Source of the DNA: a virus
Virus record (IMG/VR): IMGVR_UViG_3300044999_000017
Location: 1 to 50,490 of that record
Length of the DNA stretch: 50,490 nucleotides
Strand: one strand, 5' to 3'
Below the pieces are notes generated by a model that had not been told where the DNA came from, ran no database searches, and saw only the letters and a list, made by a program, of their open reading frames with translations. The translations under genes were made by a program, and so were the position numbers. Positions 1-50,490 of this stretch are shown in pieces; position 1 is the stretch's first letter; each line of letters starts with the position of its first letter.

Positions 1-27
1 CTTGTGATTGGGCGCGTCGGCAAATGC
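1..27. repeat. Terminal direct repeat marking a circular genome
   Basis: Bases 1-27 are identical to bases 50464-50490. A gene reads through this junction without a break (residues 105-131 of the cysteine peptidase), so this is a closed circle cut at an arbitrary point and the true length is 50,463 bp. It could be a circularly permuted headful genome or an excised prophage circle; the sequence alone does not decide. Confidence 0.93.
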
Positions 28-339
28 GGCATCAGTCGGTCTTGTGCCAAGGGCAAATTGCTGTTGCTGGAAATCGCTTATTCCAGTGGTCGCTGTGTCC
101 GGGCCATAACTCAAGGTATCCGGCCATAGCTTTTCAGCACAAACGCCCAAGGTCTGCGCGGAATTGTTGAAATTTTCAAACAACTGCGACAACTGAACCA
201 CTGGCTGGCCTGCCAAGATTCCACACATCTCCATCGCGTAGAGCCTTGAGCACTGAAAGCAAAGACCCCCGACCTGCTCGCGCGGAGGAAGCACCGCCAG
301 ATAGCGCGGCGTCGGATCGAAAGTTGCTGGCAGGCTCAT
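1..339 (-). CDS. Papain-like cysteine peptidase, N-terminal part (continues at 50463)
   Basis: This is codons 1-113 of a 359-aa protein that crosses the circle junction and ends at 49723. The start is the ATG at 339, which overlaps the stop of the preceding gene (ATGA). Residues 18-34 (PPREQ-VGG-LCFQCSRLY) resemble the papain-family active-site block: Gln22 would be the oxyanion glutamine and Cys30 the nucleophile. A downstream G-H165-E-L...GYD block fits the catalytic-histidine region. The C-terminal ~70 residues are a domain of the G-x-W/W-Y-x-W type seen on phage fibres. It may be a virion or wall-acting peptidase, or the missing lysin; the next gene is the i-spanin. The family call is from motif reading, and the usual catalytic Asn is not obvious. 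Confidence 0.62.
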   Translation of the reverse strand, partial: MSLPATFDPTPRYLAVLPPREQVGGLCFQCSRLYAMEMCGILAGQPVVQLSQLFENFNNSAQTLGVCAEKLWPDTLSYGPDTATTGISDFQQQQFALGTRPTDAAFADAPNHK

Positions 340-479
340 CGGTCAATCCTGAAATGCGGGCCACTATGCCCAGCGTCGAGCAGACACTGGCCATCTGGAC
401 AACGAAACGGATCGACCACCGGCAAGGACTGGAATCGCCCCTGCAGGTAGCCGATCCAATAAAGCAAGTGGCCGATCAT
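336..479 (-). CDS. Small Cys/His protein (47 aa)
   Basis: Starts at the ATG at 479, overlapping the stop of the 476-811 gene (ATGA), and its own stop overlaps the peptidase start. The C-terminal half carries C-PDGQ-C...AGHSGPH, a short Cys/His motif also found in the 81-aa protein at 1119-1364 (C...AGHDGSH). It may bind a metal; no function is recognised. Translational coupling on both sides supports that it is real. Confidence 0.6.
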   Translation of the reverse strand: MIGHLLYWIGYLQGRFQSLPVVDPFRCPDGQCLLDAGHSGPHFRIDR

Positions 480-1389: not shown

Positions 1390-2628
1390 TCATTCCGTGA
1401 CCATCGGCAGGGTGGTAGTTCCAACCAGCGTTCTATTACCCGAGGTGGTGATTGCCGCCCTGATCTCGTAGACGCAGCCAGAGACACCGTTCCTGATCGA
1501 CTGCCTGACTGTTAGTCCTGAGATATTGGCGGCGCCGTTCAAGATCGCGCTCGGCGTGGGATCAGCACCGTTCAAGAGGCTCACGGTAACGGTTGCCGAG
1601 GAGATGGTTTCAAGGCCGAGCTCCTGCGTGAAGTCAAGCGTGGCAATGATGACTTCGGATGGGTCTTTGGGTCCGATCGACATGGTATTTCCTAGAGGTA
1701 GCACTGCGATCCAGCGACGCGGAGCAATGATTTCGGTCCAGCGGCGCGGTGGAATGAGTTGGTAGAACTCCAGATCCAGCGAATAGGTTATTGGGCCACC
1801 GACTGACAGTGTCGGTATCTGCCCTGACTTGGTGATCTGCGCTCGGGCCGGCGTATAGCTGAACGCGCGTTTGAGTGTCGGGACTTGCCCGGTCAGCACC
1901 TTGCTTGCTAAACCCGGCGCACCTTTCCAACCGACGAAAAGGCTTGGTATCTGGCCGGTCTTGACGATGCTGGCGACACCGGGCGCGAAATTGAATGCAC
2001 GTACCAGTATTGGAACCTGCCCGGTCTTGAGCAAGTTTGTGGGGCTCGGATTGCCGCTGAATCCACCGCTTACGGTCAGGCTTGGAACCTGCCCGGTCTT
2101 GATCAGGCTCGCTAGGGTTGGCGTGTAATTGAACGCAACCTTGAGCGTCGGCACCTGGCCGGTCTTGAGGAGGCTTGATACTCCTGGTGCTCCTGTGAAC
2201 CCCTTTGAAAGATTTGGCACCTGCCCCGTCTTAACAAGGCTGGATACTGCAGGCGTGAAATAGAATGGTGTGCCAGGAGGAAGAACGGTCTGGCGCGTTC
2301 GCTGATTGCTGACCAGTCGACGCTTGGTAATGAGCGTGCTGACCGGCCGCAACGGAAAGCGAACAACGATAAAGCCGGAGATCCTCAGGATCGGGACTTG
2401 GCCTGTCTTGATGATGTGGGCCAGCCCCGGCGTATAGAGGCCGGGAACGGTGATGCCGCCATGCGGCCTAGCGAGATTGGCGTGCCCGAAGAGCCGCGGC
2501 TGCAGAGCCCGGCGGGCATTGCCCGCGCCTTTAACAACCAGCGGTCTTACCGGAGGTTTGCTTGTTGCGTACCCGTGCGGTCCACCGAGTTGTGCTCGGA
2601 CGAGGTGTCGTCGAGTTCCGGCAGCCAT
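1390..2628 (-). CDS. Fibre/appendage protein with eight KTGQVP-type repeats (412 aa)
   Basis: The central region holds eight degenerate repeats with core (I/L)-x-K-T-G-Q-(V/I)-P-x-L, mostly spaced 24-27 residues apart, between about residues 72 and 272. An APRRW-type motif follows, and then a C-terminal domain (about 315-412) of the phage-fibre Ig-like type (KDPSEVIIATLDFTQEL...TISSATVTVSL). The N-terminus is basic and may be a degenerate repeat. Probably a structural appendage made of stacked repeats, the last domain being the common phage beta-sandwich. It follows the 253-aa gene without a gap. Confidence 0.6.
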   Translation of the reverse strand: MAAGTRRHLVRAQLGGPHGYATSKPPVRPLVVKGAGNARRALQPRLFGHANLARPHGGITVPGLYTPGLAHIIKTGQVPILRISGFIVVRFPLRPVSTLITKRRLVSNQRTRQTVLPPGTPFYFTPAVSSLVKTGQVPNLSKGFTGAPGVSSLLKTGQVPTLKVAFNYTPTLASLIKTGQVPSLTVSGGFSGNPSPTNLLKTGQVPILVRAFNFAPGVASIVKTGQIPSLFVGWKGAPGLASKVLTGQVPTLKRAFSYTPARAQITKSGQIPTLSVGGPITYSLDLEFYQLIPPRRWTEIIAPRRWIAVLPLGNTMSIGPKDPSEVIIATLDFTQELGLETISSATVTVSLLNGADPTPSAILNGAANISGLTVRQSIRNGVSGCVYEIRAAITTSGNRTLVGTTTLPMVTE

Positions 2629-5991: not shown

Positions 5992-7305
5992 TTAGTAAGC
6001 CCACTCTGTTGCAAAGCCCATCTTCTGCAGCGCTGGGATGTCCTGTTTCAAGCGCTTCCCGATGTCGGTGCGGTATTGCGGATTGTTCGGAATCTCGACG
6101 CTGTCGGCCGCGGCATAGGCTTGCCGTGCAGCTTCCGAGACGGTATCGCCAAGCCCTGTTGCGACTACCAGATATTCGCCAGCCGACACCATGCAGCGCT
6201 GATCGACCCCGTTGTCATCAGGAGCCATGCCTGACACCAGCTCGCACGGCGCAAGGTAAGGACGGTATTCGTTTTCATCATCGAGCCCCCAGACCGGAAT
6301 GCCATTGGACGCCTTGGGTTCTGGATTTTTGTTCGGCCATGGAGGAATGCTCATGACGATGCCCACCGCAATGTCTGGCATTGGTTCAAAGGTATCGTCA
6401 CCATCGACCAGATGAGCCAGCCACTCGCACGGATCGGGATGCAGGGTCTGCACGATATTGAATGACGGCCAGCCCAGGCGACAGGTGAACTCCATTGGCC
6501 GCGGGCTTCCGTCCTCGTCGATGATTACCGATACGTCTACTGAGCCGGTGTGTCCCATCTTGATCAGGTCACCCTCAAGCGGTAACAGGACTTCCTGAGC
6601 CAGTTGTGATTCGCTCATTTTCATGTAGCGGATCGCCGACCCAGTCTCGCCCGTATTGGGTCCAACATCGTCATTCATGAACGTCTTGTGTTCCCAGCAT
6701 TCCTCGACATACTTTAGGAACCCGTTTTTGCCGAGCCAGCCGTTGACAGAAAACTCAACGCCCTCGACCTTCTCCTGCATCATGAAAGTGCCATGCGTCT
6801 TTCCGTCAGATCCAACGCGGCGCAGCTTGAACACCATGTCCTTGACCGACTTCCCGACATAGGAAAGCGCCTTGTCCTTATCCCCATTGGGCTTGCTCAC
6901 AAAGGGCCGTTTCTCCGCAAGAACGTACTTTTCCGCCTTCTTGTAGTCGGAAAACATTTGGTAGGGGATGACGTCGATTCCGCACTTCTGCATGAGCTTC
7001 TGGCCCGCTCCGCGATCAAGCTCAAGTTGTGCTGACTCATACGAAGGAGAAAGCACGGGGTATCCTTTTTTGCGGTAGACATCGAGCTCCTTCAGCCACT
7101 TCACGTTGTCGGTAGTGATGATCAGGTCGGCCCAGTTCACATGCGCTTGCCACTTCTCTCCCGCGATCTTCTCGATCAGACCGTCTCCGATCTTTCGCGG
7201 CTGCTTGGTATCCTTGTCGATCGCCATGCAGGTCATGACTCTATGCCCTCGTGCATAGCAACGAAGCGCAAAATCCAGCGCGGAGCCGGTTTGATCGAGC
7301 ACCAA
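5992..7305 (-). CDS. PurD-like ATP-grasp ligase (437 aa)
   Basis: Resembles phosphoribosylamine-glycine ligase across its length: a Rossmann-like N-terminus ((N)ILVLDQTGSALDFALRC), an ATP-grasp middle (KAEKYVLAEKRPFVSKPNGDKDKAL; MMQEKVEGVEFSVNGW; VDVSVIIDEDGSPRPMEFTCRLG, the usual NARFGDPE-type metal site) and a PurD-type C-terminus (EYLVVATGLGDTVSEAARQAYAA...YRTDIGKR). The TTG at 7305 gives the shown start, but the alignment favours the ATA at 7314, which overlaps the upstream stop as ATAA and follows GAGGGG. A purine-pathway ligase inside a virion operon is odd; it may ligate another substrate. The fold is fairly sure, the reaction not. Confidence 0.72.
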   Translation of the reverse strand: MVLDQTGSALDFALRCYARGHRVMTCMAIDKDTKQPRKIGDGLIEKIAGEKWQAHVNWADLIITTDNVKWLKELDVYRKKGYPVLSPSYESAQLELDRGAGQKLMQKCGIDVIPYQMFSDYKKAEKYVLAEKRPFVSKPNGDKDKALSYVGKSVKDMVFKLRRVGSDGKTHGTFMMQEKVEGVEFSVNGWLGKNGFLKYVEECWEHKTFMNDDVGPNTGETGSAIRYMKMSESQLAQEVLLPLEGDLIKMGHTGSVDVSVIIDEDGSPRPMEFTCRLGWPSFNIVQTLHPDPCEWLAHLVDGDDTFEPMPDIAVGIVMSIPPWPNKNPEPKASNGIPVWGLDDENEYRPYLAPCELVSGMAPDDNGVDQRCMVSAGEYLVVATGLGDTVSEAARQAYAAADSVEIPNNPQYRTDIGKRLKQDIPALQKMGFATEWAY

Positions 7306-17898: not shown

Positions 17899-18267
17899 TC
17901 ACGTCTTTGCCTGCAGGTTGCGATACGCGCCGAGCGCTGCAAGCGCCGCTGCGAAGCCGGTACAAACGGAACCTATTGCGATCCCAAGCGGTTGCGGATC
18001 GAATTTGTGCAGGGGGTCGAAGTACATCGCCCACACGTAAAACGCAATCATTACCGGGATTGCGCCGAGCACGCTGACGCCGAGCCATGCGACCAAGACC
18101 AGCCCAGCGTCTTTCGTCCGGTTGTCGGCCTCCGTCGTCATCTGTTGCCAGACGCCGGCCGCTTGTTCCGGCGGTTGCGGCTCCGGCGGCGTATAGGGCA
18201 GCGCAGTGCCACTGGCGACTTCTACCTTCGCCGGCTGGGCGGCCGCTTTGGCTTTGGGTTTAGTCAT
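17899..18267 (-). CDS. Membrane protein with two TM segments (122 aa)
   Basis: Start ATG at 18267 overlaps the DUF5675 stop (ATGA). The N-terminal ~45 residues are Lys/Ala/Pro-rich and probably cytoplasmic. Two hydrophobic segments follow (about 57-83, VLVAWLGVSVLGAIPVMIAF; and about 96-115, IAIGSVCTGFAAALAALGA). A holin or membrane-accessory candidate in a possible lysis cluster; the type is not recognised. Confidence 0.55.
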   Translation of the reverse strand: MTKPKAKAAAQPAKVEVASGTALPYTPPEPQPPEQAAGVWQQMTTEADNRTKDAGLVLVAWLGVSVLGAIPVMIAFYVWAMYFDPLHKFDPQPLGIAIGSVCTGFAAALAALGAYRNLQAKT

Positions 18268-18659
18268 TGCACCGTGATCCACACAGGTTCGCCGCGACCG
18301 AGAGCGCCCTCGATCTTGGGATAGAGCGCATCGAACGCAGCCTTCGAGCTTCCGATGAAATCATCGCCAGAGGTCTGCCCGACGAGAATGCACCCCTCAG
18401 TGTCGGCGGACGTATTACCGGGATGAATACGCACGCCATCGAAACCTGGAACGTCGACCAGCAGCGGTAACGGTCGTCCAAAATGCGGCGACATGGTGAT
18501 GACAACCTTGTAGCGCCCGAACGGTATCGCAGTCTCACCCTTGATCTTCACGGCGCGAATCGTCGGCTCCAGAGCGAAGCATTCAAAGATCGAGTTAACG
18601 AATAGTTCCCCGGCGGTCGAAACGCCGTCACGATCTGAGCGGTATAGGTCGAGTTCCAT
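18264..18659 (-). CDS. DUF5675 family protein (131 aa)
   Basis: Begins MELDLYRSDRDGVSTAGELF and has the conserved RIHPGNTSADTEGCILVG block (about 84-101), typical of DUF5675 proteins. The His...Gly-Cys-Ile arrangement recalls the L,D-transpeptidase (YkuD) active site. The start overlaps the upstream stop (TGATG). It is surrounded by four small membrane-protein genes, so it could act on peptidoglycan during lysis or in the virion; that role is inference. No canonical lysozyme is visible elsewhere. Confidence 0.7.
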   Translation of the reverse strand: MELDLYRSDRDGVSTAGELFVNSIFECFALEPTIRAVKIKGETAIPFGRYKVVITMSPHFGRPLPLLVDVPGFDGVRIHPGNTSADTEGCILVGQTSGDDFIGSSKAAFDALYPKIEGALGRGEPVWITVQ

Positions 18660-18979
18660 CACTTCACCTGCACGCGAGTCCTGAGTTCATTGATCTGCGC
18701 TTCAACCAAAGCAAGCCGCCGCGTCATTTCGTCGTCCTTGTTTTGTAGCAGCAGAAACTTCTGTTCCATGAATTCGCGCTCGTGCCGCGCATCGTCTTTG
18801 GTATAGGCCGCGATCTTGTTGGATGCGTTGTCATCTATAACGGCCGTCAACTTTCCGTTCTGGCTCGCCAGAAACCAAGTAAAGGTGATCGTCTGCAAAA
18901 TGATGAAGCCGACCACCGAGACCGGGATATCCTTCGACAGCCTCCACCTGCCGTTATCGTGAGCACCTATTTCGTTCAT
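18659..18979 (-). CDS. Small membrane protein with coiled-coil tail (106 aa)
   Basis: One N-terminal TM segment (about 18-38, IPVSVVGFIILQTITFTWFLA) followed by a charged coiled coil (about 60-106). The topology is like phage holin-accessory or spanin-like proteins. Start ATG at 18979 in ATGA overlap with the DUF3309 gene stop. Confidence 0.6.
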   Translation of the reverse strand: MNEIGAHDNGRWRLSKDIPVSVVGFIILQTITFTWFLASQNGKLTAVIDDNASNKIAAYTKDDARHEREFMEQKFLLLQNKDDEMTRRLALVEAQINELRTRVQVK

Positions 18980-19134
18980 AGCCTTCCGAGCAGCAAGAGG
19001 ATGATCAGCACGATAATGAGAACGCCGACAACCCCCGGCGGCCCGTAGCCCCAATCTTGCGAGTGCGGCCAAGTCGGCAGCACACCAATGAGAATCAGGA
19101 TGAGAACAATCAACAGTACGGTTCCGAGGCTCAT
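18976..19134 (-). CDS. DUF3309 small membrane protein (52 aa)
   Basis: MSLGTVLLIVLILILIGVLP-TWPHSQDWGYGP-x-GVVGVLIIVLIILLLLGRL is a clear match to the DUF3309 pattern: two hydrophobic helices joined by a TWPHS-x-x-WGYGP loop. The family is common in proteobacterial chromosomes with no known function. The ATG at 19134 overlaps the upstream stop. Probably acquired from a host. Confidence 0.8.
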   Translation of the reverse strand: MSLGTVLLIVLILILIGVLPTWPHSQDWGYGPPGVVGVLIIVLIILLLLGRL

Positions 19135-25309: not shown

Positions 25310-25338
25310 TGTTTATGCCTTTAGGCATAGCTTGTCAA
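25310..25338 (-). promoter_or_regulatory. Promoter overlapped by operator site C
   Basis: On the leftward strand TTGACA (25338-25333), 17-bp spacer, TAAACA (25315-25310): a good sigma70-type promoter in front of the scaffold gene. The spacer contains TATGCC-TTTA-GGCATA (25314-25329), a perfect 6-bp-arm inverted repeat. The TGA of the GroES-like gene is inside the -35. Repression by the phage repressor in the lysogen is inferred from identical elements at the early promoters. Confidence 0.68.
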
Positions 25339-25724
25339 GTAGTGACATCGTTGACCCCGAAAACCTCGGCGGTCGAATCAGCGCCGCGGAGGACAAAGTC
25401 CGGGAGCTTAGTCGCCTTACCGAGCACACTCTTGGCCTGCATGATCCAGTAGTTGTCGCCGTTGATCGGGAAGTGGGAGCCGGAGTAGCGGGGGAACAAC
25501 ACCGCATCGCCAGGCTTAACGCCGCGCATCTCCTTCGCCGTCCACGCCTCTTCGCCGGCATCGACGATATAGCCGATCTGCTGCGCGACCTGTTCCTTGT
25601 CCTGAGTAGCCTGCGGAATGATGATCCCGCCCGCGGTCTTCTCCTCGACCTTGAGCAGCACCACCAAAACCCGATCACCCGTTACCGTCAGCCCCGACTT
25701 GTTCTCCACCCTGCTTTTCTCCAA
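25335..25724 (-). CDS. GroES-like co-chaperonin (129 aa)
   Basis: Matches the Cpn10 fold pattern: TVTGDRVLVVLLKVEEKTAGGIIIPQATQDKEQVAQQIGYIVDAGEEAW..., with the typical EKTAGGI mobile loop at about residues 32-39 and PGDAVLFPRYSG corresponding to the usual GD.V.F..Y.G. About 30 residues longer at the ends than host GroES. It probably replaces GroES on host GroEL to fold the capsid protein, as T4 gp31 does; the position between portal and scaffold supports this. Confidence 0.85.
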   Translation of the reverse strand: MEKSRVENKSGLTVTGDRVLVVLLKVEEKTAGGIIIPQATQDKEQVAQQIGYIVDAGEEAWTAKEMRGVKPGDAVLFPRYSGSHFPINGDNYWIMQAKSVLGKATKLPDFVLRGADSTAEVFGVNDVTT

Positions 25725-45446: not shown

Positions 45447-46427
45447 ATGCGCACGATGGGGCGCCGACGCCAGCACGACCACCACTTGCCGCCCCTGATG
45501 CTCGAGCGCGCGGGCCGCTATTACTACGGCCGGAATCACGAGGCGCTAGGACCGGACTTCCCCGCGGCGCTCAGGAAGTACGCCGAACTCCACGGCGCGA
45601 CATTCGAAGCACAAACCTTCGCCGAGGTCGCCGCTGAATACCTCAGATCCGGCACCAAGCACCTTGCCCCTAAAACAGTGAGGGAATATGAAAGGCAAAT
45701 GCCGATCCTCGTGCGGGTGTTTGGCACATGCAAACTTGCCGGAATCCGGCCAGTACACGTCCGTCAATACCTTACCAAGCGGGAGAATAGTGTTTCAGCT
45801 ACACGCGAGAAGGCACTGTTATCTGGTGTCTTTTCCTTCGCAAGAAACGTTGGACTCTTTGACGGCCCAAACCCGTGCGGGGGCATCAAAGGGAAAAAAG
45901 CACATCGTCGGCGTTACGTCACTGATGGGGAGTTCAACGCGACGCTGGGGTGTTGTGATTCCACCACTAGAGACTTCCTCGAGCTCTGCTACCTGACCGG
46001 CCAACGGCCCAGCGACGTGCTCAAGATGCGCCGCACGGACATTCAGGACGGGGCGCTATGGGTCACTCAAGCAAAGACAGGGGCCAAGGTCAGGATAACG
46101 ATTGTCGGCCCGCTGGAGGCCGTTTTAGCCCGGTCCTATCCCGTTGGAAGTTTGTACCTCGTTCGCGACGAGCGGGGCCAGCGCATGAATCTCCAGGCAA
46201 TCCGCAAACGCTTCTGGAAAGCTCGCAAGGCAGCCGGGCAGGATTGGCGCATTCAGGACTTGCGGCCGAAAGCAGCAAGCGACATGGCGACGTCACAGAA
46301 GGCACAAGCTCTGCTCGGGCACTCCGCGGCGAGCACCACGGACGGCTATATCCGGCAACGCATCGGACAGCTTGTGGAACCTGTTTTGCGGGAAACGGCT
46401 GCAATTGCGGGAAAGCAGAAAAAGTGA
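45447..46427 (+). CDS. int: Tyrosine-type site-specific integrase (326 aa)
   Basis: Catalytic residues can be seen: Arg187 (LTGQRPSDVL), Lys210, the Q270-D-L-R273 box, His292 (LLGHSAASTTDGYI) and Tyr301. The N-terminal part holds an arm-type DNA-binding domain and a SAM-like domain (YLRSGTKHLAPKTVREYE). Followed at 14 bp by attP, with recognition-like TTGCGGGA repeats around, so it inserts the phage in tRNA-Ser. His in box II is Gln, as in some active integrases. Confidence 0.88.
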   Translation: MRTMGRRRQHDHHLPPLMLERAGRYYYGRNHEALGPDFPAALRKYAELHGATFEAQTFAEVAAEYLRSGTKHLAPKTVREYERQMPILVRVFGTCKLAGIRPVHVRQYLTKRENSVSATREKALLSGVFSFARNVGLFDGPNPCGGIKGKKAHRRRYVTDGEFNATLGCCDSTTRDFLELCYLTGQRPSDVLKMRRTDIQDGALWVTQAKTGAKVRITIVGPLEAVLARSYPVGSLYLVRDERGQRMNLQAIRKRFWKARKAAGQDWRIQDLRPKAASDMATSQKAQALLGHSAASTTDGYIRQRIGQLVEPVLRETAAIAGKQKK

Positions 46428-47388: not shown

Positions 47389-48024
47389 TTACAGTCCGTC
47401 AAAGACAGTTTTGGTCTCTGCAAGCTGTCCCGCGTTGAACGGTTGAACAAATACCGCCCCTTGGGCTTGCAGATTGGCAATGGCCGTCTCGGGCGCGATT
47501 CCGGAAACAACAACCTGAGCCACCCCTGCGTTCCACGTCTGATCGGCGAGGTAGTTGGCAGCGTAGTAGCGTCCGAACGCAGCTTGATCGCCAGCGAGCC
47601 GCATGGCAGCAGCTTGGGCCGCGGTCCGCTTTTCCTGCGAGATTCCGCCCAGATCGCCGATCACGATCAGGCGGCCGATGCCGGTGTACGGCCAGGGTGT
47701 GATGTCTGACGCGGTCGGCGCGACGGCTGGAGCGCTGTCGATGTAGTAGCCCTGCCCCTTGCTGCCGATAGCGAGCCAGAGAGTACCGGGGCGGCCGTCC
47801 TGATTCGCGCTGCGCGGAGGCCATCCTCCGGGCGGCGGCTGATACAGAATCCCGGCGATGATCTGATCCTGCTCGCTGGTATAGCCGGGCGGGGCCGGGG
47901 GCGCAGGAGGAGGAGGTGCAGGCTTCGGCCCGGGCGGAGGTGGGGGCGGCTGACCCTGCGTTGAGGCTGCAATAGCGTCATACAGCTCGGTCAGCGTGGC
48001 TTCGGATAGGGCAATAGTTCTCAT
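47389..48024 (-). CDS. Proline-rich late protein (211 aa)
   Basis: Last gene of the leftward late unit. N-terminal helix, then a Pro-rich stretch (residues ~25-47, PPPPPPGPKPAPPPPAPPAPP in parts) and an alpha/beta C-terminal domain (IGRLIVIGDLGGISQEKRTAAQAAAMRLAGD...). No family recognised. ATGA overlap with the upstream membrane-protein gene. Confidence 0.58.
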   Translation of the reverse strand: MRTIALSEATLTELYDAIAASTQGQPPPPPPGPKPAPPPPAPPAPPGYTSEQDQIIAGILYQPPPGGWPPRSANQDGRPGTLWLAIGSKGQGYYIDSAPAVAPTASDITPWPYTGIGRLIVIGDLGGISQEKRTAAQAAAMRLAGDQAAFGRYYAANYLADQTWNAGVAQVVVSGIAPETAIANLQAQGAVFVQPFNAGQLAETKTVFDGL

Positions 48025-48269
48025 GGTTTCATCCAGGATGGGCGGGCGAGTTTAGTTACAGGCTGCACGGCGACGACATGATCTGCCGCGACGACATTGG
48101 TTGTGGGCACGATCACCGCTCCCGCCGGCGCATGACCGTGCTCGAACATATGCGCGAGCTTCGCCTTCAGACCGTGAGCAATGGCGAATTGCCAAACATT
48201 GACCCCCAGCGATACGCAGAGAGCGATTAGCAGATAGTTCAAATCCAGCGAGACTAGCCATGCGCTCAT
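48021..48269 (-). CDS. Holin-like membrane protein (82 aa)
   Basis: ATG at 48269 (ATGA). One TM helix (about 9-31, LNYLLIALCVSLGVNVWQFAIA) then a soluble Ala/Val/His part. Sits in the cluster with spanins; a holin or pinholin candidate, by position. Confidence 0.55.
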   Translation of the reverse strand: MSAWLVSLDLNYLLIALCVSLGVNVWQFAIAHGLKAKLAHMFEHGHAPAGAVIVPTTNVVAADHVVAVQPVTKLARPSWMKP

Positions 48270-48406
48270 GGTTTCTTGCTCCAAAGTGTTTTGATCCACG
48301 CCACGATAGGCGCAGTCCAGCCGGGATTCTTGCCGGTGATCCAGCCAAGCAGGAAGCCGATTGCGCCGCCGATCAGGAGCAGGCAAATGGCACCGAGGAA
48401 GGTCAT
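48266..48406 (-). CDS. Small holin-like membrane protein (46 aa)
   Basis: ATG at 48406 (ATGA overlap), stop overlapping the next gene. Hydrophobic N-terminus (FLGAICLLLIGGAIGFLLGW) followed by TGKNPGWTAPIVAWIKTLWSKK. Compact lysis-cluster membrane protein. Confidence 0.55.
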   Translation of the reverse strand: MTFLGAICLLLIGGAIGFLLGWITGKNPGWTAPIVAWIKTLWSKKP

Positions 48407-48588
48407 GCGGGCTCCGTCCGTCCGTAAGCGATGGCCCGAAGCGCGGCTATCTCTTGGCTCCAGTTTTCGCCGGTGTATGGCCGGCCGTGGATCTGCACCA
48501 TCAAAAACGCATTGTTCAGCGCTGGCTCAAGGCGGTCATACTTTTCGACGAAATCGCGTATCGCTTTGACAAGCTGCGAATTGGTCAC
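48403..48588 (-). CDS. Hypothetical protein in lysis cluster (61 aa)
   Basis: MTNSQLVKAIRDFVEKYDRLEPALNNAFLMVQIHGRPYTGENWSQEI: soluble, helical. ATGA overlap on both sides. Unknown. Confidence 0.55.
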   Translation of the reverse strand: MTNSQLVKAIRDFVEKYDRLEPALNNAFLMVQIHGRPYTGENWSQEIAALRAIAYGRTEPA

Positions 48589-48938
48589 GGCTTCGGCTCC
48601 TCTGCGGCACAGCCCAAAAGGGCAGCGTTGGCCTTGATCTTGTAATCATCGAGCGCGAGCAGATCGGCCTTCGTCTGGTAGTAGCGCTGCAACGGCGTAC
48701 CGTTCGGATCAATCGTATTCGGTGGCAGCGGCGGCATTTCCTTGCACTTGTCGGCCGGGTTTGCGCCTACGCACCCCCCGATGGGTTTCACGCATCGCAC
48801 CGGAACAGGATCGTGCACTGGCGGCAGCGATGTAACGGAGCTGACCAGTTTCGGCTCGGGCTTCAAGGCGGTTGTGCCGCAGGCGGTGAGCAGGGCTATA
48901 ATGATGACGCAGGTGTGGACCGTCTTTAGCGGCGGCAA
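48585..48938 (-). CDS. Outer-membrane spanin-like lipoprotein, TTG start (117 aa)
   Basis: A TTG at 48938 with GCAGGAACGG gives a short signal peptide with lipobox LLTAC (Cys at ~22). The mature part is Pro-rich, with paired Cys (VRCVKPIGGCVGANPADKC). It is downstream of the i-spanin as expected for Rz1. The open frame also runs from an ATG at 49085, but that would bury the signal peptide 50 residues inside. Confidence 0.62.
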   Translation of the reverse strand: MPPLKTVHTCVIIIALLTACGTTALKPEPKLVSSVTSLPPVHDPVPVRCVKPIGGCVGANPADKCKEMPPLPPNTIDPNGTPLQRYYQTKADLLALDDYKIKANAALLGCAAEEPKP

Positions 48939-49258: not shown

Positions 49259-49726
49259 CTACTTTCCAACCCTCACCGCATCGACCGGAAACAATATCGC
49301 CCGCTGCGCTGCAAACTGTTTGCTGTCGGCGTCGATCTCGGCCAAGGTCTGCTCGCAGGTCATGACCGTTGCAGGTCTTCCAGCCTTCGCCCGCGCATCC
49401 TTCTGCGCTGCGGAGAGTTGCACCAGCGTCGATTGAGCAGCATTCAGGTTGTTCTGCGCGACGGTCGCAGCACGTTCGGCTAATCCCTTCCACGCCAGCA
49501 CGTTCGAGCTCTGTTCGTCGCGCTCCTTCTTGATAGGTTCTATGCTGGCTTGTAGAGACACATTGTCAGCCAAGCACGTTGCCGTATTAGCTTGCGCTGC
49601 GCTAATTGCAGCCTCATCTTTAGCTTTTTGCGCTACTGCTATACCGTGATCGTGTACCGCAACGAATCCCGCTAGGCTCGCAAGGAGCACTAGAATGGCG
49701 ATGCCGCCGATCATCCAGCTTGTCAT
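49259..49726 (-). CDS. Inner-membrane spanin-like protein, Rz type (155 aa)
   Basis: N-terminal TM anchor (about 4-24, WMIGGIAILVLLASLAGFVAV), then a long periplasmic coiled coil rich in Ala/Gln/Lys/Glu (30-125). The topology and size are of an Rz i-spanin. ATGA overlap with the peptidase gene upstream. The o-spanin partner is encoded downstream at 48585-48938. Confidence 0.68.
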   Translation of the reverse strand: MTSWMIGGIAILVLLASLAGFVAVHDHGIAVAQKAKDEAAISAAQANTATCLADNVSLQASIEPIKKERDEQSSNVLAWKGLAERAATVAQNNLNAAQSTLVQLSAAQKDARAKAGRPATVMTCEQTLAEIDADSKQFAAQRAILFPVDAVRVGK

Positions 49727-50490
49727 GGCGCTGTCGTCGCGCTCCAGCCGCTGCCGGTCCAGAGATACCAGTTGCCGCTGCTGTTCTTGACCTTGATCTG
49801 CCCCGCCTTGAGACTGATGACGACGCCCTGACCTAAGGCGGCGGACACGCCATTACGCATGATCCAGTAGCCATACATCGAAGCGCCGGCCAGCGACCAC
49901 ACCGCCCCGCTCGGATCGGTGAGCGTTGAGCCATCCCGCGGAACCTGTATCTCCGGCACTGGCGCGCTCGCTACGTCGGGCACAAGCTGATTCCACAACG
50001 CCTTGCCTGCGTCGATCTGCGCTTGCGTGACGCTGCCGAGGGTCAGTCCATTCCCCGCGGCTTTGATATTGTCGATCAGCATTTGAGTGTTTCCTGTTGG
50101 CGTTGGAATAGACGGCGGCGGCACGACAGGCCCGAAACCATACGCCGGATAGATCGTCGGATACGAGGTCGGGCCGGTGAAACTGACGCTGCGTACAACC
50201 CTATACGGCGTTAACTCAGCATAGCTATAATGAAACGGAATCGGGCTCGCGCTGCGAGAGTCAGGTCCTAACCAGCCAGTGCTGTCGTATCCCCACACAC
50301 AAAGCTCGTGCCCTGGTGGCGGGGCGTAGTTCATCGAGCACATGACCGGATGCCCTGCCGCAATCTCGGTCTTCATTTGCAGAATCAAGTCACTTGGCTG
50401 GAAAACCATACTCCCGTTTTGCGGGACCCAGATGCCGCCCTGTATGTCTCCGTATTCGAGGATCTTGTGATTGGGCGCGTCGGCAAATGC
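49723..50490 (-). CDS. Papain-like cysteine peptidase, C-terminal part (continues from position 1)
   Basis: This is codons 114-359 (50463 to 49723) of the 359-aa protein that starts at 339; bases 50464-50490 duplicate 1-27. It holds EIAAGHPVMCSMNYAPPPGHELCVWGYD, with candidate catalytic His165 and the papain/C39-type G-H-x-L...GYD pattern, a Pro-rich linker, and a C-terminal ~70-residue domain (DPSGAVWSL...YWIMRNG...GNWYLWTGSGW) common on phage fibre and wall-acting proteins. The stop overlaps the i-spanin start (ATGA). Confidence 0.62.
   Translation of the reverse strand, partial: AFADAPNHKILEYGDIQGGIWVPQNGSMVFQPSDLILQMKTEIAAGHPVMCSMNYAPPPGHELCVWGYDSTGWLGPDSRSASPIPFHYSYAELTPYRVVRSVSFTGPTSYPTIYPAYGFGPVVPPPSIPTPTGNTQMLIDNIKAAGNGLTLGSVTQAQIDAGKALWNQLVPDVASAPVPEIQVPRDGSTLTDPSGAVWSLAGASMYGYWIMRNGVSAALGQGVVISLKAGQIKVKNSSGNWYLWTGSGWSATTAP
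50464..50490. repeat. Second copy of the 27-bp terminal repeat
   Basis: Exact copy of bases 1-27 (see that entry). It should be counted only once in the circular molecule. Confidence 0.93.

Follow-up and report, generated by a model that had tools for sequence, protein, structure and literature searches.

Papain-Type Peptidases of Phages

Xylellain-type C1A peptidases have already been described in Caudoviricetes, among both Myoviridae and Siphoviridae (PMC10380794). They are encoded in 10 INPHARED phage records and in at least 416 IMG/VR contigs, the latter found with just two search patterns, so this kind of enzyme is not rare in environmental viruses. The first-pass annotation of the genome studied here had called such proteases uncommon in phages, a view that these counts and the published record overturn. 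Most of the recovered phage peptidases keep the Q..C, His and NSW elements, and simple patterns are sufficient to find them. Outside phages, a useful reference is xylellain from Xylella fastidiosa (PDB 3OIS), a short bacterial C1A peptidase.

Individual phages provide hints about function. In Thermoanaerobacterium phage THSA-485A, the gene for a C1A papain (Tsac_2838) directly follows a GH25 lysozyme gene. The annotated “endolysin” of Alicyclobacillus phage MMB025 combines a C1 domain with Ig-like, Rv2525c-like (glycoside-hydrolase-like) and PG_binding_1 domains, and its gene lies near annotated tail-fibre genes. The C1 peptidase of phage XacN1 was listed as a potential lytic enzyme and was not among the enzymes reported to be packed in the virion (PMC5852040). 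The idea that phage C1 genes generally sit in lysis cassettes found no support. Around 47 further viral C1 genes, no general pattern was seen; among the listed families, the 102 neighbours included a single amidase and a single holin.

The peptidase described here is, judged from its sequence, a strongly diverged new form of these enzymes, which are already known in phages. It escapes the simple patterns and displays approximately 23–33% identity to phage C1 examples in the alignment used throughout (A2). With xylellain it has in common the LP..D start, GVC.E..WP and GH....GYD, and it differs in that the mature start is not preceded by a pro-region, two loops are trimmed, DSR replaces NSW and a tail of 134 residues is added. 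The host of THSA-485A is of the Gram-positive type and its C1A gene has a GH25 neighbour, whereas the neighbours in the present phage are spanin-like. The likeness to MMB025 lies in a C1 domain with a C-terminal extension, but the MMB025 extension holds recognised wall-degrading and wall-binding domains, and the tail of the present protein has none of these.

The Peptidase Gene and Its Genome

The window, that is, the whole stretch of 50,490 nucleotides that was analysed, comes from a soil phage. It carries a 27-bp terminal direct repeat, and it therefore closes as a circle of 50,463 bp. The peptidase gene lies on the minus strand and crosses the junction of this circle, running from 339 to 1 and on to 49723, with 359 codons in the joined frame (Table 1). 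The span of 1–339 given initially thus covers the first 113 codons only, and His165 and the C-terminal domain are encoded at 49723–50490. Both motifs noticed at that stage, PPREQ...CFQCSRLY and GHEL..GYD, are present within the single open frame. The frame is considered real because its 1,080 nt are free of stops, its GC content by codon position (0.56/0.51/0.68) is like that of the other genes of the phage, and it has ATGA overlaps at both ends, at the start with a 47-aa ORF and at the stop with the i-spanin-like gene. The 47-aa ORF (336–479) and another small ORF (1119–1364), both on the minus strand, have a common Cys and AGH.G.H pattern and possibly form a small metal-binding family.

Table 1. 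Positions of the peptidase gene, its presumed active-site codons and the lysis-related candidate genes in the window.
Feature	Position	Strand	Remarks
Peptidase residues 1–113 (N-terminal part)	1..339	-	Frame joined over the repeat; alignment A2
Cys27 codon of the peptidase	261-259	-	Alignment A2
Peptidase residues 105–359 and stop	49723..50490	-	Last 27 bp duplicate the window start
His165 codon of the peptidase	50310-50308	-	Alignment A2
Asp181 codon of the peptidase	50262-50260	-	Alignment A2
Peptidase linker and C-terminal domain, residues 226–359	49726..50127	-	Probably a beta-rich tail module
47-aa ORF	336..479	-	ATGA overlap with the preceding gene (476-811) and with the peptidase start
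i-Spanin-like protein, 155 aa	49259..49726	-	N-terminal membrane helix, then charged and coiled-coil-like; ATGA overlap of its start with the stop of the peptidase
Probable o-spanin lipoprotein	48585..48938	-	Lipobox LLTAC|G, start codon uncertain; sequence reading and hydropathy
Small protein, one membrane helix, possible lysis accessory	48021..48386	-	Hydropathy
DUF5675 protein, candidate endolysin	18264..18662	-	PF18925, E = 7.9e-31

Other genes give a picture of the phage as a whole. A tyrosine integrase (45447–46427, plus strand; PF00589, 3e-16) indicates that it is probably temperate. An IS1595-type transposase at 32.9–34.1 kb (plus strand; PF12762, 5e-45) is 85% identical, across its best segment, to a transposase from a betaproteobacterial MAG (L131); the element either entered the phage recently or hints at the host. 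Between about 39 and 45 kb (plus strand), in genes that were not pinned down exactly, there are matches to a PHROG for Mom-like DNA modification (1.4e-28) in one protein and to dATP/dGTP pyrophosphohydrolase (PF04447, 9e-27) in another; these sequence matches make DNA base modification possible. The structural operon on the minus strand includes a GARS/PurD-like ATP-grasp protein (5992–7305; PF01071, E 1.4e-11; PF02843, 6e-8), with 58–63% identity in two related phages, and a GroES-like co-chaperonin (25335–25724; PF00166, 5e-18), assigned to its gene by position, reading and relatives, the latter being found in 37 loci. The fibre gene at 1390–2628 (minus strand) encodes about ten “TGQVP”-like repeats followed by a terminal Gp77 fibre-adaptor domain (PF23148), and its relatives occur in 44 loci.

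The peptidase gene itself is accessory, as no C1 peptidase was found by protein or PF00112 search in 30 IMG/VR records with a related terminase, several of which are fragments. The PF00112 search gave matches in its control genomes, and relatives of the portal and major capsid proteins are present across the terminase-related loci. The nearest relatives, G002 and G003, have the structural genes in common with the present phage, the ATP-grasp gene included, but not the peptidase end of the operon.

Homology to Family C1 and Predicted Fold

Residues 1–210 can be assigned with security, at the level of sequence, to a divergent papain-type cysteine peptidase (family C1, xylellain-like). Standard domain libraries hardly recognise the protein. 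The only Pfam match is the papain-like Peptidase_C39_2 (PF13529, E 0.005), which is confined to the His region and, at 17.8–18.6 bits, falls below the curated cut-off of 24 bits. Peptidase_C1 (PF00112, cut-off 20.7 bits) gives no match at E<=10, and neither do the PHROG and NCBIfam libraries give one. Across the whole PDB sequence set, the best match is xylellain, in the right register (E 0.024). For this reason, a comparison set of real C1 peptidases from alphaproteobacterial genomes, together with 80 from viral contigs, was gathered, and the phage protein was tested against it alongside controls. Built from 12 bacterial C1 peptidases, an HMM gave the phage protein 14.3 bits, while the top score in 1000 shuffles was 6.9, and the addition of the 80 viral sequences raised this to 18.5 bits against 6.6 for the best shuffle; both models were built without the phage peptidase itself. 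A full-length viral C1 profile scored the protein at 54.6, whereas the highest of 1000 shuffles reached 15.5; there is a small leak here, since the columns of this profile were taken from an alignment with the phage peptidase as one row. When the profile was applied to 750 real proteins, the best non-C1 protein scored 11.5 and everything above 12 came from C1-containing loci; known C1 enzymes score 14–234. It is these scores, set against shuffles and real-protein decoys, that make the homology secure.

The predicted fold agrees. From the single sequence, AlphaFold2 gave no usable model (pLDDT 34); guided by an alignment of 53 viral C1 sequences, it reached a pLDDT of 73 and a pTM of 0.71. Foldseek placed xylellain first for this alignment-guided model (E 2.8e-5), as did VIA-align 2 (Z 14.4, 180 residues, 3.8 A). 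The listed PDB fold matches are papain-family entries, among them 2b1m, a papain-fold protein that has no catalytic cysteine. A papain-type fold of the N-terminal domain is thus very probable, and the model is not independent support for it, because its input alignment consisted of C1 sequences. The first-pass annotation had proposed the papain-like reading from motifs and suggested structure prediction with Foldseek as a check; profile scores, the xylellain match and the fold comparison now place that reading on firmer ground than a motif match. Neither a fold lacking a Cys–His pair nor a closer non-catalytic fibre family, the outcomes named there as contrary, was found.

Close relatives of the peptidase were absent from INPHARED, PLSDB plasmids, IMG/VR (searched with protein pieces) and GTDB contigs, as well as from 397 genomes belonging to the same order as a Hyphomicrobiales MAG. 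The best genome match turned out to be spurious on checking, and the neighbouring genes used as bait (476–811 and the i-spanin gene) gave no matches.

Active Site

The strongest conserved block in the peptidase is GVCAEKLWP, with 26 units against 3 for the next best placement. The catalytic His block of the family (GH-A/V----GY) finds its best placement in the whole protein at His165 (12.2; next best 3.5). The nucleophile had been given as Cys30, and here Cys27 is favoured instead. In alignment A2, it is Cys27 that occupies the invariant Cys column, and not Cys30; with Cys27 as the nucleophile, the helix aligns without gaps and the residue at Cys+10 is Glu37, as in the family. The Cys-helix block scores are -5.7 for Cys27 and -12.4 for Cys30, both of them poor in this strongly diverged region, and the modelled central helix spans residues 28–42. 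The Cys region was not covered by a local HMM alignment, and the N-terminus was misplaced via the LPP motif when semi-global alignment was run freely; the choice of Cys27 therefore depends on A2, the block scores and the modelled structure. Cys27 and His165 are likely to be the catalytic pair. Gln22, the candidate oxyanion-hole residue, stands 5 residues ahead of Cys27, compared with 6 in the family, and MAFFT places it one column off.

The NSW motif is absent from the peptidase; DSRS, with Asp181, is found in its place, in a region with a pLDDT below 50. Asp181 follows His165 by 16 residues, the same distance as from His to Asn175 in papain. Elsewhere in clan CA, Asp is common as the third catalytic residue. 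Two stretches of the family that form surface loops, the YNER..RDGIK part and the YESFES..VPMP loop, have no counterpart in the protein, and there is an insertion after WPD. The protein has no signal peptide and no pro-region. Catalytic activity is plausible, with reservations because the NSW motif and the two surface loops are missing.

The C-Terminal Module

The tail of 134 residues (226–359) has no Pfam, PHROG or NCBIfam match and probably consists of a linker and a beta-rich module. Searches turned up a single relative, in one related phage contig, where a 241-aa protein (L045:15720-16445) with a signal-like start, encoded just after structural genes, resembles the module in its C-terminal part. 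The match (L045:16254-16430) is weak, with E values of 0.002–0.003 when the local set was searched and of 5e-6 when scan candidates were. In 190 genomes, the domain gave matches at chance level only. With this single relative, the label “fibre-type”, originally given to the C-terminus, is weak and cannot be regarded as established.

Spanin-Like Neighbours and a Candidate Endolysin

The ATGA overlap at the peptidase stop bears out the coupling to the i-spanin-like gene that had been noted from the start, and it suggests that the peptidase is probably translated together with the spanin-like pair. Neither the i-spanin-like protein nor the o-spanin candidate has a family match in domain or PHROG searches, so their names are taken purely from anatomy.

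The first-pass annotation had recognised no lysozyme, amidase or transglycosylase. This is still the case by Pfam among approximately 60 scanned window proteins, but a candidate endolysin is present in the form of the DUF5675 protein. Its gene is flanked by genes for membrane proteins (17899–18282 and 18659–19072), and in two Vibrio phages, TM-helix genes are likewise listed next to DUF5675. By eye, the protein has an “IHPGN..GCI” His/Cys motif reminiscent of L,D-transpeptidases, and there is a weak Tlde1 match. DUF5675 may be an unrecognised endolysin family. No consistent partnership between DUF5675 and C1 genes was seen in the relatives and in C1-bearing phages.

Possible Roles of the Peptidase

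The first-pass annotation had offered three roles for the peptidase, as a virion protease, a lysin or a cleaver of envelope proteins. The role that is tentatively favoured here, at slightly less than an even chance, is that of a holin-dependent envelope protease that acts at the lysis stage. This preference stems from the spanin overlap, the missing signal peptide and the two wall-enzyme associations in THSA-485A and MMB025. The divergent C1 peptidase would be made late in infection and, having no signal peptide or propeptide, would accumulate in folded form in the cytoplasm. Once the holin opened the inner membrane, it could reach the envelope, where Cys27 and His165, probably with Asp181, may cleave either protein of the envelope or the peptide moiety of peptidoglycan. 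Meanwhile, the co-translated spanins would disrupt the outer membrane. Taken together with the lytic-enzyme listing of the XacN1 peptidase (PMC5852040), the ATGA overlap and the two associations speak for the envelope role. Against it stand the neighbours of viral C1 genes, which have no general association with lysis, and the candidate endolysin elsewhere in the genome. The sequence also speaks against it, with NSW absent, a poorly conserved Cys helix and a C-terminal module that resembles no known wall-binding domain.

The main rival, clearly less likely, is a protease carried by the virion, at or close to the tail fibres, which would clip a host surface protein (pili, S-layer or matrix) as the phage adsorbs or enters; binding would be the task of the C-terminal module. 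The position of the gene downstream of fibre-type genes, among them the one with the Gp77 fibre-adaptor domain, is in line with this, as are the recurrence of the module in the L045 protein encoded just after structural genes and the tail-fibre surroundings of the MMB025 gene. However, the peptidase gene overlaps the spanin gene and not a fibre gene, the similarity of the module amounts to one weak pair, and the XacN1 enzyme is not one of those reported as packed in the virion (PMC5852040).

Two further readings are unlikely to about the same degree. The protein could have kept the papain fold but not the peptidase activity, and its task in the envelope or the virion would then be binding or structural. 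The change from NSW to DSR, the negative scores of the Cys-helix block, the two lost loops and the precedent of 2b1m are compatible with an inactive enzyme, but Cys27 and His165 are retained, and Asp181 lies at the papain spacing and is of a residue type used elsewhere in the clan. Alternatively, the peptidase might be a true part of the lysis machine that is co-translated with the i-spanin and cuts the protein linkers between the outer membrane and the wall, thereby allowing membrane fusion by the spanins.

It is slightly less probable still that the peptidase is the main endolysin, a papain-fold peptidoglycan endopeptidase in place of a lysozyme. The lack of recognised wall enzymes among the scanned proteins, the annotation of the MMB025 protein and the apparent lysozyme in the comparable region of the related phage G003 (by eye) would suit such a role. 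It is doubtful because the DUF5675 gene, sitting among membrane proteins, encodes a better candidate; in addition, Pfam finds no wall-binding domain in the peptidase. C1 enzymes of known substrate cut proteins, unlike NlpC/P60 and CHAP enzymes, which also counts against an endolysin. Finally, a protease for prohead or internal virion protein maturation, for which a late gene and a protease fold would fit, is very improbable, since the gene is accessory and is missing from the 30 records of terminase-related phages.

Implications

Papain-type peptidases of phages reach well past the Pfam and PHROG models and include forms that have neither the NSW motif nor two of the family loops. Such enzymes can no longer be viewed as rare in phages. 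If the linker-cutting reading is true, the disruption of the outer membrane would be partly proteolytic. If the present peptidase is active at the envelope, proteolysis would join the known tools of phage lysis, and the enzyme would offer a compact cysteine protease for study.
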